Assembly: GCF_003340475.1 (NCBI RefSeq) | Contig: NZ_QBKA01000002.1 | Coordinates: 62,001-126,000 of the forward strand | Reading direction: 5' to 3' | Length of the DNA: 64,000 nucleotides | DNA from: Alteripontixanthobacter maritimus | GTDB taxonomy: Bacteria > Pseudomonadota > Alphaproteobacteria > Sphingomonadales > Sphingomonadaceae | Shown: piece after piece, positions 2,313 to 8,760 of the stretch | Position numbering within the stretch: position 1 is the first letter of the stretch | Layout: each line of letters opens with the position of its first letter | Translations under genes and position numbers: made by a program | Notes under the pieces: model-generated | What the model was told of the DNA's origin: nothing | Databases searched by the model: none | What the model saw: only the letters and a program-made list of their open reading frames with translations

Positions 2313-2349
2313 GAATGCAGGGGCTGGCATGAACCCAGCTCCTGCATTC
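2313..2349 (-). terminator. Rho-independent terminator of the peptide operon
   Basis: A 15-bp stem with one G-T wobble (left arm 2313-2327, right arm 2335-2349) and a 7-nt loop. Read on the minus strand, the stem is followed at once by TTTCTAG. It lies about 15 nt past the stop of the 56-residue membrane-protein gene, the last gene of the minus-strand peptide operon. Confidence 0.75.
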
Positions 2350-2363
2350 AAGTTGTTGGACGA

Positions 2364-2534
2364 TCAGCTGTTAAGCAAAAACAGAACGGCCAAGAAAATA
2401 CCAAAACCGCCACCGAGTATGACACTAACAATCTTCTCGTTCTGGCTCAATTTGACCCCGCGAGGAAGACGAATTGACCCTAAACAGAAATGAGACGATC
2501 TGGTTTCTGCTTTGCTAAGTAGATCGAAAGACAT
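2364..2534 (-). CDS. Small one-helix membrane protein, candidate immunity protein
   Basis: A 56-residue frame that starts 5 nt after the stop of the 57-residue double-glycine peptide and ends just before the terminator. Residues 1-33 are polar and basic with one Cys (position 17); residues 34-54 form a single hydrophobic helix (KIVSVILGGGFGIF, then LAVLFLL). Small membrane proteins encoded directly after a bacteriocin precursor are often the immunity protein, so that is my working assignment from position and topology alone. I do not recognise the sequence. It has no GG leader of the precursor type, so a third exported peptide is less likely. The tight spacing implies translational coupling to the precursor gene. 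Confidence 0.6.
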   Translation of the reverse strand: MSFDLLSKAETRSSHFCLGSIRLPRGVKLSQNEKIVSVILGGGFGIFLAVLFLLNS

Positions 2535-2539
2535 GCGAA

Positions 2540-2713
2540 TTAGTCCCGGTTTAAGGCTGTCGTAGCGCCAGCAACACCGGCCGCGCCTCCGAGCCCTACC
2601 GCTGCCGTCTTGGCAGCAGTGCTAAGCTTCACTGCGGGCACTACAAGAAATCCAAACCAGATAGGACCTCCTGCAACGACTTCCAGTTCATTGGACTTTA
2701 GTTCTTTAATCAT
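2540..2713 (-). CDS. Double-glycine-leader microcin-like precursor, 57 residues
   Basis: Starts MIKELKSNELEVVAGG and continues PIWFGFLVVP in a small, hydrophobic, Gly/Ala-rich core rich in GG, AAG and TTA motifs. The leader ends in the double glycine (residues 15-16) that C39 peptidases cleave, and has the E-L-x-x-V spacing typical of such leaders (ELEVVAGG). The predicted mature peptide is 41 residues with no Cys. The site VAGG-PI is shared with the neighbouring 70-residue precursor, so both are likely processed by the exporter at 5374-7530. An AAAGG ribosome binding site lies upstream. I infer a class II microcin-like secreted antibacterial peptide; a signalling peptide cannot be excluded. 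Confidence 0.8.
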   Translation of the reverse strand: MIKELKSNELEVVAGGPIWFGFLVVPAVKLSTAAKTAAVGLGGAAGVAGATTALNRD

Positions 2714-2745
2714 TACAAATACCTTTCAGCATAGAATTGGACGAG

Positions 2746-2958
2746 TTAAGAAACGGCGCGTACGACCCTGTCAGCGGCCACTGTAAGTGCCGCACCGGCG
2801 CCTGCTGCAGCGGTTGCGTAACCTGCAAATTTGGCTATCTTTACGACCGCGACCGGTATAAAAATTGGACCACCGGCAACGTGTTCGATATCACGGGTCG
2901 ACAGGGTTTGAATCCCGTAATTTACAGGTGTGTGTGTTGGGTTCAAAGTATGGTTCAT
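2746..2958 (-). CDS. Double-glycine-leader microcin-like precursor, 70 residues
   Basis: The ATG at 2958 is preceded by AAAGGAG at ideal spacing, so I prefer it over an upstream in-frame start at 3009. The leader is 30 residues and ends LSTRDIEHVAGG; the predicted mature 40-residue peptide begins PIFIPVAVVK and continues as an Ala/Gly-rich amphipathic stretch with Lys, Asp and two Arg near the C-terminus and no Cys. It is first in a minus-strand operon with the 57-residue precursor (32-nt gap) and the 56-residue membrane protein. Two related precursors with the same VAGG-PI cleavage junction suggest a two-peptide bacteriocin or two paralogous toxins. Modification enzymes are not seen nearby, so the peptides are probably unmodified. 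Confidence 0.82.
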   Translation of the reverse strand: MNHTLNPTHTPVNYGIQTLSTRDIEHVAGGPIFIPVAVVKIAKFAGYATAAAGAGAALTVAADRVVRAVS

Positions 2959-3061
2959 CGTAAACTCCTTTAAAAAACAAGTAGTGCAATCAACCTTGTG
3001 TTGCGACATCGTTGTGCAGGCTACTGGTCGATAGGTCTAATAAAAATGAGTGTGATTCTTG

Positions 3062-3076
3062 ATAAGCTGCACTTAT
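3062..3076. promoter_or_regulatory. Candidate LysR-type operator (T-N11-A palindrome)
   Basis: ATAAG-CTGCA-CTTAT is a perfect 5-bp-arm palindrome that satisfies the LysR T-N11-A rule. It lies between the divergent peptide operon (start 2958) and lysR (start 3182), the classical position for a LysR operator. Confidence 0.45.
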
Positions 3077-3129
3077 GGATTAGAGGCGCAAGAGAATGGC
3101 GGTGGTGAATAAAAGCTAAAATAAGGATT

Positions 3130-3135
3130 TATAAT
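3130..3135 (+). promoter_or_regulatory. Candidate -10 box of the LysR gene
   Basis: A perfect TATAAT about 47 nt before the lysR start codon. No good -35 hexamer is seen at 17 bp, so the promoter assignment is tentative. Confidence 0.35.
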
Positions 3136-3181
3136 ATTGAATCGTAAACAATGGGCGTGGGGAAGGTAACGGTTTCAGAAT

Positions 3182-4099
3182 ATGCCTACAATCCGTCAAT
3201 TCGAGTATCTGGTTGCGGTTGCCGATACGTTGCATTTCGGCAAAGCTGCAGAGAACTCCAACGTGTCTCAGCCTGGACTGAGCCAGCAATTGCAGCAGTT
3301 GGAGTTTCGCTTGGGCGCGACCCTATTCATTAGGTCCGGTCGATCGGTTGTGATTACTCCGATTGGAGAAAAGGTGGTCGAAAAAGCGAGAACCTTGCTC
3401 CAAAATTTGTCAGACATTCACGATGTTGCGCGAAACGAATCCAAAGATATCAGCGGCCATTATCGCCTGGGAATAACACCCACTCTTGGACCTTATCTGC
3501 TACCCGCAACGCGCAAGGCTCTTGTCGAAGAGATCCCGAATGTTGAGCTTTCCATAACAGAGGCTTTACCCGATCGAAGTCTGGATGCATTGACGCGTCA
3601 CGAACTGGACTTTGTCATCGCTACGTTACCCTCAAAGCAAGACGGAATCGAGTTGGTCCCTCTGTTCGAGGAACCGCTTCATATTATCGGTTCAAGAGAT
3701 CACGCGATCTTTGCGGTGGACGGCGCTGCGACAAGGGATATGAAAGGCGCCCAGATCTACTCTCTCGATCTTCGCCACCCACTAGCTCTAGTGACTAAGG
3801 CTGTGTGTGAAGAATTCGGGGCGACCCTGATTGCGGAATATCAAGGAACCAACTTGGATAATCTTCGAAAGATGGCGGCCACAGGCACTTGTTTCGCTTT
3901 GTTGCCGGAGCTCTATTTGCTATCGGAAAACAACGATCAGTCGCAGGTACGTATACTTAAACTGACAGACTGGAGTTTATCGCGAAAATTTTACGGAGTT
4001 TGGCGTAAAGGCTGTCCTGCAGAAAGGAATATCAAGACAATTGCCAAAATTATCCGTCAGACTGCTCTTAAGGAATTGCAGGCGGGCTTTGGATATTAG
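3182..4099 (+). CDS. LysR-family transcriptional regulator (OxyR-like group)
   Basis: 305 residues, the normal LysR length. An N-terminal winged helix-turn-helix (about residues 1-60: TIRQFEYLVAVADTLHFGKA, SNVSQPGLSQQLQQLE) is followed by a linker helix and a substrate-binding domain with LGITPTLGPYLLP and VIATLP elements typical of the OxyR/CbbR-like branch. It is transcribed divergently from the two-peptide operon with a 220-bp gap containing a T-N11-A palindrome, so it is the best candidate regulator of the peptides. No OxyR-type pair of redox cysteines is evident, so a peroxide response should not be assumed. The gene lies between the precursors and the exporter genes and is less GC-rich than the core genome. 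Confidence 0.9.
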   Translation: MPTIRQFEYLVAVADTLHFGKAAENSNVSQPGLSQQLQQLEFRLGATLFIRSGRSVVITPIGEKVVEKARTLLQNLSDIHDVARNESKDISGHYRLGITPTLGPYLLPATRKALVEEIPNVELSITEALPDRSLDALTRHELDFVIATLPSKQDGIELVPLFEEPLHIIGSRDHAIFAVDGAATRDMKGAQIYSLDLRHPLALVTKAVCEEFGATLIAEYQGTNLDNLRKMAATGTCFALLPELYLLSENNDQSQVRILKLTDWSLSRKFYGVWRKGCPAERNIKTIAKIIRQTALKELQAGFGY

Positions 4100-4119
4100 A
4101 ACTGATATCTCACAACTGC

Positions 4120-4290
4120 ACGCCGTCTCCGTTGTAGCGTTCATATGTGCCGTGCCTTCATCCATGTTGAGCAGTTTCGGGTGCCGGTAGGGCGCGTGCC
4201 AGCAGGATGCACTGCTTCTTTCCACTGGAGAGTGCCAAACCCACGTCGTCTACAGGCGTTCATACTGCATCGGCATGCAATGGATTAGCT
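4120..4290 (-). pseudogene. Fragment of a second peptidase-type ABC exporter ATPase
   Basis: Read on the minus strand, this region encodes, across a stop and one frameshift, a degraded copy of the exporter C-terminus at 5374-7530. Recognisable pieces are MPMQYERL, then VDDVGLALSSGKKQCILLAR (cf. MGSALSGGQKQRVLLAR) and, after a frameshift, YRHPKLLNMDEGTAH (cf. YRRPKLLIMDEGTAH). It corresponds to roughly residues 605-665 of the intact protein: ABC signature plus Walker B. Divergence is well beyond sequencing error, so this is an old duplicate or relic of a second exporter. Confidence 0.8.
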
Positions 4291-4433
4291 CTCATGCTGA
4301 TATTGGGTTGTTGAAATCCAATTGTGGGCTTCCGGCCAGCCACCATCCATTCCCGACCATCGGGGTATGAAATTTTCCGAGCAATGGAGTTCTTCGCTAT
4401 CGATGAAAGACTGGCAGCCCACAGGCCAAAGCT

Positions 4434-4661
4434 TCATCCACAACATGGCGCGAGAAACAGGACCATTCTCGCCCGAGAATAGCGGGACCTCAAACGCTCT
4501 GCGATAAGTGAAAAACCTGTATACTCGCGATGCACTATTCCGTCGATTATGAACCGTTCTTGGTCTTGGAAGGGCCAGGAGTAGGCATTCTGCAAGATGA
4601 ACTCATGGTTCGCATGCTTGAACACCCACGTTTGACCATGGAAGTCGCGAGCGGTCACCAT
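4434..4661 (-). CDS. Hypothetical protein, 75 residues
   Basis: The ATG overlaps the stop of the preceding frame (TAATG at 4661), which suggests translational coupling. The first two thirds look like a normal polar, aromatic-rich protein (DFHGQTWVFKHANHEF, NAYSWPFQDQERFIIDG). The last 20 residues (RSRYSRARMVLFLAPCCG) are less natural, so the frame may be truncated or shifted at its end. I recognise no family. It lies downstream of the exporter on the same strand. Confidence 0.45.
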   Translation of the reverse strand: MVTARDFHGQTWVFKHANHEFILQNAYSWPFQDQERFIIDGIVHREYTGFSLIAERLRSRYSRARMVLFLAPCCG

Positions 4662-5077
4662 TAATCACGCTTGTTACTACCTTTCAAAACGGTGTCAGAC
4701 CACTCAACAATCGATGGAAACAATGCATGAAATAAAAGAGGCAATGAGAGAATAGGTACTAGCATCACTAATATATTGGGGTCGGCCGGATCGACATAGG
4801 CACTGTATGCATAAAATGCGCCGAGCAGACAGAGTACAACTGCGGCACTCTTACCGAGCATCCGCCCGAAAACCGAAGCTGGCCAGTCATCCCTCTTCGG
4901 TTCTGTATTTATCTCTCGGGACATCGACTGGTCGATCTCTAGCTTGACTGCGACGAAGTTGAAGTCGTCCCACTTACCGCGGTGCCACCAACTGCGCGCT
5001 GAGCGGTTCGCTTCGCGGAATGCCCCCATGATGCGAGCTTCAACATATCTTACCGCCAATCCACCGAGCACAGGCAA
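4661..5077 (-). CDS. Hypothetical membrane protein, possibly frameshifted at its 5' end
   Basis: The frame encodes an N-terminal part with VLGGLAVRYVEARIMGAF and WWHRGKWDDFNFVAVKLEID, then two transmembrane helices (about residues 74-92 and 98-118: SAAVVLCLLGAFYAYSAYV and ILVMLVPILSLPLLFHALF) and a polar tail. Only a TTG at 5077 opens this frame. A better start, ATG at 5142 after GGAGAAGG, opens another frame (MSDVQVLSNKEKTQSVQDWG...) that stops at 5050; a single-base shift near 5085-5095 would join the two into a protein of about 160 residues. It may be an accessory or immunity membrane protein of the exporter locus, or a phage-holin-like remnant. No family assigned. Confidence 0.5.
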   Translation of the reverse strand: MPVLGGLAVRYVEARIMGAFREANRSARSWWHRGKWDDFNFVAVKLEIDQSMSREINTEPKRDDWPASVFGRMLGKSAAVVLCLLGAFYAYSAYVDPADPNILVMLVPILSLPLLFHALFPSIVEWSDTVLKGSNKRD

Positions 5078-5134
5078 AGCCGGCCCCAGTCCTGCACTGA
5101 CTGGGTCTTTTCTTTATTCGACAAAACTTGAACG

Positions 5135-5251
5135 TCACTCATGTGCCTTCTCCGGTTCACCCTGCAACATTCGCAGGATTGTCGAAATCCAGGAAGAACT
5201 GTGCGCATTTGGATCAAAGCGCGCTAGACATTTCCCGATGCGGTCCGACAT
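5135..5251 (-). CDS. Possible 38-residue peptide
   Basis: A short frame (MSDRIGKCLARFDPNAH...GEPEKAHE) ending inside the start codon of the next frame (ATGAGTGA, 5135-5142). The overlap and same-strand arrangement after the exporter gene suggest it may be translated. It has no double glycine and no recognised family. Confidence 0.35.
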   Translation of the reverse strand: MSDRIGKCLARFDPNAHSSSWISTILRMLQGEPEKAHE

Positions 5252-5373
5252 CACGATTTACAAAAGACAAATTGCTAGAGGAGCCCGGCCCGCACTTAAT
5301 ATGACCCAGAAAAACGCCAAGCGTTCCTGATTGCAAATGAATGTTTGTTATTCTGATCGATTGTTGTTTCTGC

Positions 5374-7530
5374 TCAACCCCTCGGTGAAGTTTCGCCCAT
5401 CGCTTCCGCCTGCATTCGCTCCACCTCTTCAGGTGTAAAGATCCGCCCCCCTGCAGCAATCAGCACGCGGTCTGCTGCAGCGATCGTCTCCGCCCGGTGT
5501 GCAATTACGATGCGCGTCATCCCTAGACTGTTCACGGTTTCGTTGACAACAGCCTCTGTCGCGGCATCCAGGTGGGCAGTGCCCTCGTCCATAATCAATA
5601 GTTTCGGACGGCGATAAAGGGCGCGCGCCAACAGCACACGTTGTTTTTGGCCGCCGGACAGCGCGGACCCCATGTCGCCTACCAGGCTTTCGTATTGCAT
5701 CGGCATTGCCAGAATCTCTTGTTCGATGGCGGCCGCCCGAGCAGCTTCGGCGATGCGGTCCATATCGGGCGCCTCATCGAACAGCGCGATATTGTCGGCG
5801 ATCGAGCCTGCAAACAACGTATCGTCCTGCAGCACCGCTCCCACCTGCTCGTGAAAGCTTTTGTACCCAAATCTATCCAGTGTCTGACCATCGACCAGCA
5901 TTTCCCCGCTGTCGGGCTCGACAAGGCCAAGCAGGATCTTGACCAGCGTGGACTTACCTCCGCCGGACGGGCCGGTGATTGCCACATGCTCTCCCGGCTC
6001 CACGGTCAGGTTTACACCGTCCAGCACCATCGGATCATTGGGTGCGTATCGAAAGCGGATATCCTTCAATTCAATCTTTCCGCGCAGTTCTGTATGCGCC
6101 TCGGCGCTCAATCCGAAGCTCACGTCTTCGTTGGAAAGCGCGATATCGGAGAGCCTCTCGAGGTGCAGGCCTATCATACGGAACGCGATGAATTGATCGA
6201 CCAGCCCGGCTGATTTCTGGGTAAATTGTGTCTTGTAGGCCATGTAGGCGAATACCATGCCGACGCTGAATCCGCCTTCAAGCACGAAGCCGATGGCGAG
6301 AAAGACGGTCACGATATTTTCGATGCCAAACAGAAGGCCGTTGGCGGTTTGCTGCCAGATACCGATACGCGCCTGTCGTACATCGGCGTTGACGTTGTCG
6401 GTAAGCTTTCCCTGCCAGACCGCATGCCGGAGTGTTTCACGGTTGAACAGCCGAAGTGCCGTCATTCCGCGCAGCGTTTCGATGAGCGTTGTCTGTTCCG
6501 CTGCACCGGTGGTTATGGTTTCCTCGATCGCATCGCGCTCGAAAGCAAAGGAGATGATTCGAACCAGCAAGTATATGGTGAAGGCCGCCAAGGCGATCAG
6601 CGCCAGAGTAGCGCTGTAGAAAAACATGACGGTCAATGTGAGAATCGCCATGATGCCATCGATCAGCGCTGCAATCGCTCCAGTCAGAAGCAGGTCCTGG
6701 ATCGGGCTGATCGACTGGAAGCGGGAAAGGATATCACCAACATGGCGCTTCTCGAACCAGTCGATCGGAAGACGAAACAGGCGCCGGGCAATATTGCTGG
6801 CAAGGCCATATCCAAGCGACGTGCCTGCCCACAGCAGAACGAATGATCGCAGCAGGTTCGCTGCGACATTGATCAGCATGAACAGGCCGAAGCCGAGCGC
6901 CAGCACAATCAGAAGATCGCGGTCCTGCGAAGGCAGAACGCGGTCGATCGCCAGTTGCATGTAATAGGGGGATGCGAGCACAAACGCCTGCAGCACTATG
7001 CTCAACAAAAGCGTCTGCACGAGAGCACGTTTCAGCCCGGTCATGCTGCCCCAGAGCTGTGAAAGGCGCAATCGTTCGCGATTATCCTGCCGGTCGAAAT
7101 CGGCAGTAGGACGCAGTTCGAGAGCTACCCCGCTGAAATGTCTGGATACCTCCTGCAGCGGCAGCCATTTGGTGTTGCTGGCAGGATTGTGGATGAGCGC
7201 CCGCCCACGCTCTACCTTTTCCAGAACGACGTAGTGGTTGAGATCCCAGTGCAGCACGGCCGGAAGATGCAGATTGCCAAGTTCTTCCAGCGGTAGCTTG
7301 ACGGCGCGTGGAGACAACCCGATGCGGTCTCCAATCGCCATCAGGGCTTTAAGCGGAGCCCCGCGCATGGAAACGGCGAAACGCCGGCGCATCGAGCCGA
7401 GATCGATGCGAAAGCCGTGATAGTTGGCGATCATTGCCAAGCTGGCGATTCCGCATTCCGCAACTTCGGTCTGGCGTATCAGCTTGACTCGGCCTTGCGA
7501 GAAAAAGCCGAGCTGGAGTGGACTGCTCAT
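5374..7530 (-). CDS. C39-peptidase-containing ABC exporter (CvaB-type)
   Basis: 718 residues with the full plan of a peptidase-containing ABC transporter: an N-terminal C39 domain (residues about 15-140; Gln20 and Cys26 in QTEVAECG, His99 in NHYVVL), a membrane domain of six helices (about 165-440), and a C-terminal ATPase with Walker A GPSGGGKST (about 520), signature LSGGQ (about 624), Walker B LLIMDEGTAHLD (about 644) and H-loop His678. It should cleave double-glycine leaders in the cytoplasm and export the peptides through the inner membrane with HlyD and an outer-membrane TolC-type partner not encoded here. The third C39 triad position, normally Asp in DPA, is Asn115 in HNPAS. The gene follows hlyD with no gap. 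Natural substrates are the two precursors at 2540-2958. Confidence 0.95.
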   Translation of the reverse strand: MSSPLQLGFFSQGRVKLIRQTEVAECGIASLAMIANYHGFRIDLGSMRRRFAVSMRGAPLKALMAIGDRIGLSPRAVKLPLEELGNLHLPAVLHWDLNHYVVLEKVERGRALIHNPASNTKWLPLQEVSRHFSGVALELRPTADFDRQDNRERLRLSQLWGSMTGLKRALVQTLLLSIVLQAFVLASPYYMQLAIDRVLPSQDRDLLIVLALGFGLFMLINVAANLLRSFVLLWAGTSLGYGLASNIARRLFRLPIDWFEKRHVGDILSRFQSISPIQDLLLTGAIAALIDGIMAILTLTVMFFYSATLALIALAAFTIYLLVRIISFAFERDAIEETITTGAAEQTTLIETLRGMTALRLFNRETLRHAVWQGKLTDNVNADVRQARIGIWQQTANGLLFGIENIVTVFLAIGFVLEGGFSVGMVFAYMAYKTQFTQKSAGLVDQFIAFRMIGLHLERLSDIALSNEDVSFGLSAEAHTELRGKIELKDIRFRYAPNDPMVLDGVNLTVEPGEHVAITGPSGGGKSTLVKILLGLVEPDSGEMLVDGQTLDRFGYKSFHEQVGAVLQDDTLFAGSIADNIALFDEAPDMDRIAEAARAAAIEQEILAMPMQYESLVGDMGSALSGGQKQRVLLARALYRRPKLLIMDEGTAHLDAATEAVVNETVNSLGMTRIVIAHRAETIAAADRVLIAAGGRIFTPEEVERMQAEAMGETSPRG

Positions 7531-8760
7531 CTACCGCTTCCCGACGGCAAAAAGCGGTTCGAAGAGCCAGCGGATAAGGCTCTGCTCTTCCGTGGTTATG
7601 CGCGCGGTCAGGGTCATGCCGGCGATCAGTTCTTCTTCGTTGCCATAGGCCTCGATGCTGTCCTGCTCCATCGCCACCGTTACGATATAGACCGGTACTC
7701 TGACACCGGAATTGTCCGACTGAACTACGGGCGCGTTGGTGATATCGAGTATTCGGCCCGGAACGGTCCCGAAACGTTGGTAAGGAAAGGCGTCGGGTGC
7801 CAGGCTGACCTCTTGACCAACTTCCAGAAAGCCGATTGCAGCAGAAGGTACATACAGTTCGGCGCGCAATTCCGACCCGCTTGGCACAATCAGCATGATG
7901 GGTGACTGGGGAGTGACCGCCTGACCTGATCGTGCGGTAAGTGCGGTGACCGCGCCTGCGATCGGGGCTGCCAGACTGTAAGCATCCGAGGCTTCGGCCG
8001 ATGTTCGCCGCTGCAGAATATCGGATCGCTCGCCGGACAAGGCGGCAATCTGTGCATCATTCGCGGCACTCGTTTGCCGCATAGCTGCTTGCGCTTCGGA
8101 AATCGCGGCTCGGCGTGTTGCCAATGTTTGCTGCATCTGGCCAAGTTGCTGCTGGCGGAGCAGGAAAGTTTCCTCGCGCTGAAGCAAATCCTGCCGGCTG
8201 ATGAAACCGCGCTCCACAATGGGCCGCGCCCGCTCAAGTTCCCGGCGCGCCGTTTCGACAAGACCTTGCTGTACGCCGATCTGCCCGTTCAGACTGGCAA
8301 TTTCGGCTTCGAGCCCGGCGATACGATTACTGAGTTGCTGACGTTCGGCAGCTTCTGCCGCGCGAATGCTTTTCTGCCGCAAACGCAGATCGTTCTCCTG
8401 CGTCGACAACGATGCCAAAATCTGCGCCGAAGTGTTGCCGCCACCAGCAAGGTCCTCGCCAGTGCGGATCAACGCAAGACGCTCGCCGCTTGCAATCTGC
8501 TGTCCCTGGGAGACCGACAAGCTCTCGATGACGCCGGGGCGGGTCGGCACAATCTGCGCAACGCCCCCCTCTGGAACGATGATACCTGTCACAGTCTCTA
8601 TCCGTGAATAGCTTGCAATCGACAGAAAGAAGATCGCAGCGGCGACGATGAGAAAGAAAAGGCCGCCAATCGCCTGCCAGGAAACAGGCAATGCCATTTG
8701 CACATCGCCATGAAGTTTGTCCGAGCGATGTTCGAGCGCTTCCTTACGAAACAAGTCCAT
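7531..8760 (-). CDS. HlyD-family periplasmic adaptor (CvaA-type)
   Basis: 409 residues from the ATG at 8760 (MDLFRKEALEHR); a GTG five codons upstream is less likely. One N-terminal transmembrane helix (about residues 32-52) is followed by a barrel-sandwich half (GVIESLSVSQGQQIASGERL), a long alpha-helical hairpin coiled coil (about 90-240, rich in Gln, Glu and Arg), the second lipoyl half (YSLAAPIAGAVTALTARSGQAV) and a beta-barrel. This is the membrane-fusion subunit that links the ABC exporter to an outer-membrane channel in type I secretion. Its stop directly abuts the exporter ATG, so the two are one operon. It is divergent from the LuxR-type gene at 9053. Confidence 0.93.
   Translation of the reverse strand: MDLFRKEALEHRSDKLHGDVQMALPVSWQAIGGLFFLIVAAAIFFLSIASYSRIETVTGIIVPEGGVAQIVPTRPGVIESLSVSQGQQIASGERLALIRTGEDLAGGGNTSAQILASLSTQENDLRLRQKSIRAAEAAERQQLSNRIAGLEAEIASLNGQIGVQQGLVETARRELERARPIVERGFISRQDLLQREETFLLRQQQLGQMQQTLATRRAAISEAQAAMRQTSAANDAQIAALSGERSDILQRRTSAEASDAYSLAAPIAGAVTALTARSGQAVTPQSPIMLIVPSGSELRAELYVPSAAIGFLEVGQEVSLAPDAFPYQRFGTVPGRILDITNAPVVQSDNSGVRVPVYIVTVAMEQDSIEAYGNEEELIAGMTLTARITTEEQSLIRWLFEPLFAVGKR

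Follow-up and report, generated by a model that had tools for sequence, protein, structure and literature searches.

How does a bacterium that appears equipped to export a pair of membrane-active peptides avoid harm from its own products? The question is raised by a locus of Alteripontixanthobacter maritimus, a member of the Sphingomonadaceae, lying within a 64,000-nucleotide stretch of contig NZ_QBKA01000002.1 (positions 62,001 to 126,000; hereafter, the window). On the minus strand, between positions 2958 and 2364, two small genes whose leaders end in VAGG directly before PI are followed by a gene for a 56 amino acid (aa)-long single-helix protein and then by a hairpin. The two adjacent genes (70 and 57 aa; hereafter alpha and beta) and the one-helix protein had been pointed out in an initial annotation of this DNA, and all three open reading frames (ORFs) were recovered here (Table 1). 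Together they probably constitute a two-peptide bacteriocin-like operon with its own immunity function, served by a neighbouring type I exporter. The 56-aa protein may protect the producer as a leaderless look-alike of the beta helix, a reading that we put forward tentatively. The look-alike immunity protein would be the new part of the finding, and membrane-anchored look-alike immunity would be a testable mechanism.

The leader/core junctions of alpha (EHVAGG/PIFIP) and beta (EVVAGG/PIWFG) are of the double-glycine (GG) type. The cores are hydrophobic and cationic (grand average of hydropathy 1.19 and 0.85, respectively; isoelectric point about 10), with calculated masses of 3884.6 Da and 3940.5 Da, and the two peptides contain 10 and 8 small-xxx-small pairs; the GxxxG motif of beta occupies core residues 26-30. 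Shine-Dalgarno-like sites were identified in front of alpha (AAAGGAG) and beta (AAAGG), and the spacing of the genes suggests that alpha, beta and the 56-aa gene are co-transcribed. The terminator annotated at the operon end was upheld in part: the hairpin folds stably (-25.4 kcal/mol, z = -3.44), but it has a weak T-tract and is absent from the output of the consensus scan. Similarly, the consensus scan listed no promoter in the intergenic region 2959-3181. The AlphaFold model of beta, built from alignment A1, is helical and of low confidence (predicted local distance difference test score, pLDDT, 56), and was given no weight. The claim that small genes of this operon fall below gene-caller cut-offs looks overstated, as the genes are 171-213 nt long and common gene callers apply a 90-nt minimum.

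An exporter-based scan retrieved 38 loci, mostly from sphingomonads, with exporters up to 79% identical to that of the window; at E ≤ 1e-150, an exporter match was present in 40 of the 397 family genomes. Around 63 exporter loci, we counted GG-leader ORFs preceded by a ribosome site of at least 4 nt. Within 5 kb they lie predominantly on the exporter strand (60 vs 9 on the opposite strand), and at 5-9 kb the corresponding numbers were 1 and 2; at least one such ORF lies on the exporter strand in 33 of the 63 loci. The window was left out of this count and exact duplicates were removed, near copies (e.g. L024/L040, L104/L105) being kept. When single peptides were compared to the fetched loci using phmmer, they matched exporter-linked ORFs of other genomes: alpha (P0001) matched L020 with an E-value of 2.9e-5, and beta (P0002) matched L027 at 1.4e-4. 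In the window's genome, a profile of both window peptides and five peptides from four other genomes matches at alpha and beta and nowhere else, partly by construction. Comparison with other genomes supplies for the two peptides the support that codon usage does not. A genus-level ortholog search covered one genome, the window's own.

Two-peptide layouts recur among these loci, in many cases next to a small membrane protein. We counted 13 pairs by hand (window, L020, L024, L025, L027, L036, L091, L098, L109, L181, L183, L186 and L210), typically consisting of a hydrophobic alpha with a long leader followed by a beta with a shorter one; the first leader is the longer in 11 of them, L183 and L210 being the exceptions. 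Left out of the count were L040 (a near copy of L024), L093 and L110 (equal leaders), L185 and L207 (three or four peptides) and a Shewanella pair (equal leaders). Alpha leaders often conform to MSYxxxxFAPAGGIQELSFDEIxxVxG[GA], and beta is hydrophobic in most pairs and more polar in L036 and L098. Searches with the alpha alignment yielded matches in 19/397 family genomes at E ≤ 0.02 and in 20/386 order genomes at E ≤ 0.003; seven of the 19 family genomes had themselves supplied sequences to the alignment, and the matches are not all cassettes. Two pairs are located far from the exporter found in their own genome (L109 in G336, L181 in G187). A one-helix protein directly follows beta in the window, L020 and L027, and lies between alpha and beta in L024 and L025.

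The 56-aa protein, modelled with AlphaFold from its single sequence, is predicted to form a helix at residues 31-55 (block pLDDT 79-91), and its C-terminus is hydrophobic. Its segment VKLSQNEKIVSVILGGGFGI aligns without gaps to VKLSTAAKTAAVGLGGAAGV of beta with a score of 41 (shuffle p = 0.0004), and beta ranked first when the peptides of 19 cassettes were compared to it; in shuffles made for this pair by itself, the score is reached 17 to 39 times in 100,000. In the VKLS and LGG blocks of the beta and 56-aa genes, read by hand, 4 of 7 codons differ synonymously.

Resemblance between the putative immunity protein and its own peptide, stripped of the leader, was detected in six of the 19 cassettes (window, L024, L025, L098, L207 and L212), with shuffle p-values of 0.0002-0.0004 each against shuffled cores. 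The cognate peptide ranked first of 19 at six loci (window, L025, L098, L123, L207 and L212), where one would be expected; L123 has a shuffle p of 0.21, and at L024 the cognate came second, behind the peptide of the related L025. The observed cognate total was matched by none of 100,000 random re-pairings; for the number of row maxima, p = 0.0003. At L098, a 111-aa multi-helix protein follows the peptides and the look-alike stretch forms its end, so there it is not merely a former peptide gene that has lost its leader. Across the six pairs, residues in the look-alike are bigger than those in the peptide at 87 positions and smaller at 43 (binomial p = 1.4e-4). The test assumes that positions are independent, and the excess may simply follow from the abundance of small residues in toxin helices; L024 goes the opposite way (9 bigger vs 13 smaller).

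The 19 cassettes were drawn from 28 locus entries, each selected because it combines a peptide with a membrane ORF. The test excluded L040 (see above), second copies of the same places (L190, L191, L196, L197 and L202), entries with spurious leader matches (L039 and L184), and L091, in which the candidate overlaps alpha in another frame, as well as a plus-strand frame of L182 and a minus-strand frame of L018. The alpha of L024, the beta of L098 and the second peptides of L095 and L096 were added by hand, the cleavage site of the L181 beta was corrected by hand, and further peptides of L027, L096, L098 and L208 were left out.

The initial annotation had placed a C39-peptidase ATP-binding cassette (ABC) exporter and its HlyD partner 2.4 kb from the peptide genes, and domain matches bear this out, both genes lying on the same strand as the peptide operon (Table 1). 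Of 27 ABC matches in the window's genome, none but this exporter covers the peptidase domain; it aligns over residues 16-698 with the structure of an ABC-type bacteriocin transporter (4ry2). With three OEP/TolC-type ORFs also encoded (6 domain matches), the genome has the components of a type I route.

Table 1. Features of the peptide locus and its surroundings (coordinates refer to the window).
Feature	Coordinates	Strand	Remarks
Peptide alpha precursor, 70 aa	2746..2958	-	30-aa leader ending in VAGG; 40-aa core from PIFIP; ORF, homology
Peptide beta precursor, 57 aa	2540..2713	-	16-aa leader ending in VAGG; 41-aa core from PIWFG; one GxxxG
56-aa single-helix protein, putative immunity protein	2364..2534	-	residues 27-46 resemble beta core residues 12-31
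Hairpin at operon end, terminator-like, weak T-tract	2313..2349	-	folding
223-bp divergent intergenic region	2959..3181		presumed promoter region of peptide operon and LysR gene
OxyR-like LysR regulator	3182..4099	+	divergent from peptide operon, 223 bp upstream; presumed regulator
Decayed 3' remnant of second C39-ABC exporter gene	4097..4285	-	about residues 606-669, one stop
C39-peptidase ABC exporter, 718 aa	5374..7530	-	PF03412 106.1 bits, PF00664 112.6, PF00005 113.6
HlyD-family periplasmic adaptor, 414 aa	7531..8775	-	GTG start; internal ATG at 8760 is a possible start

Based on this inventory, we propose that the C39 domain would remove both leaders by cutting after VAGG, and that HlyD and a TolC-type channel would release the 40- and 41-residue cationic, Gly/Ala-rich peptides, which together might permeabilise the inner membrane of close relatives. 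Expression of the peptide operon may be controlled by the OxyR-like LysR protein. The producer would be protected by the 56-aa protein, perhaps because its membrane helix, a bulkier leaderless look-alike of beta, pairs with incoming beta and blocks assembly of the pore, a step for which there is some statistical support. More generally, and with less than even confidence, we suggest that in a subset of Sphingomonadales two-peptide systems the producer is guarded by a leaderless membrane copy of its own toxin helix, in which small residues have mostly given way to bulkier ones and which would join the pore and poison it.

Several observations weigh against these proposals. Codon usage gives no support for alpha, beta or the 56-aa gene (p = 0.69, 0.67 and 0.15, respectively), alpha contains no strict GxxxG, and the peptide operon and the exporter are separated by the LysR gene, an exporter remnant and an ORF of unassigned family. 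In the C39 domain (window 7102-7488) the Cys and His of the catalytic triad are present, and the third position holds Asn rather than Asp; Asn occupies this position in 21 of the 37 aligned exporters, the window's included, and papain likewise has Asn as its third catalytic residue. A scan of 90 loci showed a hydrophobic GG-leader ORF in 47; a small membrane ORF adjoins it in 22 of these, and the mechanical rule finds none beside it in the other 25. As for the look-alike itself, the 56-aa ORF starts 5 nt past the beta stop without a clear ribosome site, and the assignment of its product as the immunity protein, favoured by its position, predicted helix and resemblance to beta, has to contend with the lack of a convincing homolog in the family genome search. 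Formal testing came after all six positive cassettes had been spotted by eye: the idea arose from the window, L024, L025, L098 and L123 (the last of which failed), and L207 and L212 were noticed before the test was run. In an unseen set of ten plasmid exporter loci (H10, H11, H12, H14, H15, H17, H18, H20, H23 and H25), to which a mechanical rule was applied without hand edits, the single candidate (from Shewanella) is no look-alike (p = 0.96), which slightly lowered our confidence in the look-alike reading. The likeness between the 56-aa protein and beta could mark a third, leaderless effector peptide, or have arisen by chance between two Gly-rich helices, without any look-alike immunity, and we regard this as a serious possibility that falls short of being probable. 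It is favoured by the modest significance of the single case, as 30 other ORFs of 8,908 (1.01 million residues) also score at least 41 against the beta core, several of them being GG peptides or duplicates. Thirteen of the 19 cassettes, including L020 and L027, whose betas are the closest to the window's, show no significant look-alike, as does the unseen candidate. Moreover, leaderless two-peptide bacteriocins exist, and the genes of one of them, enterocin DD14, are reported to contribute to their own immunity (PMC7332713). Neither version, however, readily accommodates the recurrence of the resemblance at five further loci or the advantage of cognate over non-cognate pairs.

Other alternatives concern the fate and role of the exported peptides. 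In a contact-dependent system, which we consider rather unlikely here, the peptides would remain on the producer's surface as aggregates and kill cells that touch it. This is the behaviour of CdzCDI of Caulobacter crescentus, described as a contact-dependent glycine-zipper bacteriocin with a small membrane immunity protein in the peptide operon (PMC5380434); together with the class IIb bacteriocins it is the closest studied system, likened to the window by published description. Both hosts are alphaproteobacteria, and in both, two small hydrophobic peptides share an operon with a small membrane protein, the exporter genes forming a separate operon (cdzAB in Caulobacter). Two features given for Cdz-like systems in the same source, a leader ending in G[G/A/S] and type I secretion genes within 10 kb, are also found in the window. 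The window peptides are, however, shorter than those of Cdz (70 and 57 aa vs 86 and 84 aa), beta falling below the 60-151 residues stated for such systems and alpha lying within them. Nor do they contain the one or two uninterrupted, extended glycine zippers, alpha having no GxxxG and beta one, and the immunity candidate has one helix where three are predicted for the Cdz immunity protein (PMC5380434). Alternatively, the peptides could be secreted signals or surface/biofilm factors rather than toxins, with the 56-aa protein acting as a receptor or accessory membrane peptide. There is precedent in Synechococcus, whose biofilm development is reported to need GG-leader proteins (PMC4997328), and short polar or Cys-containing GG peptides at related loci (VTxxPDGxxCT-like; L027, L098 and L101) do not look membrane-active; yet the hydrophobic and cationic cores of the window peptides, the two-peptide layout with a small membrane protein and the class IIb matches of relatives all suit bacteriocins, and we consider this alternative improbable. 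We find it similarly improbable that the cassette is decaying, its former exporter lost from beside the peptides, the operon silent or the 56-aa frame meaningless. Such decay would explain the remnant of a second exporter and the missing codon-usage signal of the three small genes, and L016 and L021 likewise have incomplete copies of exporter or HlyD genes close to their peptide genes; nevertheless, none of the three frames is disrupted, relatives of the two peptides occur in cassettes of other genomes and the genome retains an intact C39 exporter.

For the two-peptide bacteriocin reading, the initial label of a two-peptide microcin-like system is apt as regards the recurring two-peptide layout, but 'microcin-like' is loose, the Cdz and class IIb systems being closer. 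Class II microcins of enterobacteria (MccV, MccE492) do share with the window a GG leader, a C39 exporter with an HlyD-type adaptor and a small immunity protein; they are, however, single peptides of other sequence, and class II microcin models gave only sub-threshold matches, to the alpha of a relative (L181; PF17508 15.9 bits, NF051486 14.6 bits). Like class IIb bacteriocins, the window combines adjacent genes for two different GG-leader peptides in one operon, cores rich in small residues, a membrane immunity protein (here putative) and a C39 exporter; it differs from them in its Gram-negative host and in the resemblance of the putative immunity protein to a peptide. An immunity protein of comparable simplicity has been described in CbnZ of the carnobacteriocin XY system, with 42 aa and one helix (PMC6957408). 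Both peptides of L025 exceed the cut-off of the class IIb model TIGR03949 (lactobin A/cerein 7B; 36.6 bits for alpha and 24.4 for beta vs 21.5), whereas the window's beta reaches 12.0 bits and its alpha yields no match; with Pfam PF10439 (Bacteriocin_IIc; gathering cut-off 27.1 bits), beta scores 18.1 bits and alpha again has no match. We regard the locus as a sphingomonad two-peptide system of the class IIb/Cdz type and do not file it as a member of either group. Comparable features occur in Moraxella catarrhalis, another Gram-negative host, where mcbABCI encodes a GG-leader bacteriocin together with dedicated exporter genes, and a small gene for immunity abuts the end of the gene for the peptide; this system differs in having one peptide and a 74-aa immunity protein with four predicted helices (PMC2761928). 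The megaplasmid of Shewanella oneidensis MR-1 (NC_004349; L221) encodes an exporter 46% identical to the window's, HlyD and two adjacent GG/GS-leader ORFs annotated as bacteriocin-like peptides; these differ in lying downstream of the exporter and in having two short leaders, and the 71-aa membrane ORF behind them is no look-alike.

The authors of the Cdz study note that immunity genes of related systems are hard to identify (PMC5380434), and a topology study calls the immunity mechanism of two-peptide bacteriocins still a mystery (PMC6957408). The window and its relatives contribute repeated two-peptide layouts in environmental sphingomonads, together with a suggested sequence rule (a leaderless look-alike helix) that would find some of the immunity genes and predict residues that matter. 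If this is true, the immunity gene could be read from the toxin sequence, and one class of these immunity proteins would gain a mechanism. Searches of open-licence literature, judged by the titles and abstract beginnings that they listed, showed neither GG-leader bacteriocins of sphingomonads nor an immunity protein resembling its own peptide.

The LysR protein has Pro where the peroxidatic Cys of OxyR resides, and the same holds for L144, a LysR protein encoded divergently from the alpha-beta pair in G336. The two group together in the tree with weak support (0.395), apart from proteins that keep the Cys; the underlying alignment includes 21 of 22 matches, and its L149 row looks wrong. Inspection of the regions flanking six further LysR matches showed GG peptides beside L144 only. 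Judged from sequence, this suggests that a non-redox relative of OxyR may control the peptide operon. The 138-aa ORF between the operon and the exporter (4661-5077, minus strand) has two hydrophobic stretches; it matches no Pfam or NCBIfam model and has no relative on the plasmids searched.

Apart from the window itself, the family search with the 56-aa protein gave a single match, in G320 (E = 0.0038); it lies inside a 283-residue open frame and was judged to be due to chance. In G412, a genome of another family, GG-leader ORFs are followed by genes for Rce1-like proteases (PF02517; L211 3257-3772 and L215 3573-4241). Rce1-like proteins are related to Abi proteins, and their superfamily is linked to immunity against bacteriocins of Gram-positive bacteria. 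The Abi proteins have been proposed to function in plantaricin immunity (PMC8538875).

The cargo found near this type of exporter is varied, comprising hydrophobic pairs as well as proline-rich, Cys-containing and polar peptides, and L093 encodes six peptides, L098 eight. A recurrent kind of short GG peptide, present in L027, L098, L100 and L101, begins with a VTxxPDGxxCT-like sequence and contains a single Cys. Two genomes of one genus carry arrays (L187 2579-4993 and L189 3246-5116) of roughly seven to ten GG-leader ORFs, whose leaders are LNExELDQVTGG-like; many end in a Gly-rich stretch before Ile, and they are unlike the window peptides. A prolyl-oligopeptidase-like gene lies behind GG peptides in an uncultured Sphingorhabdus (L016 12557-14512; called by reading alone) and on the Shewanella plasmid (L221 10222-12150; annotated as an S9 family peptidase).

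Near the peptide genes of three genomes we observed remnants or partial copies of the exporter gene (3' ABC end) or of the HlyD gene (5' end) (window 4097-4285, minus strand; L016 15329-15709; L021 7430-7765), as if recombination at the exporter/HlyD genes had swapped cassettes or exporters. Finally, Rhizobium plasmids (L219, matches H1-H8) encode exporters 61-63% identical to the window's; one of these plasmids, H1, was typed as conjugative and carries, upstream of HlyD, a 211-aa ORF with a leader-like stretch (DFEIDAVNGA).

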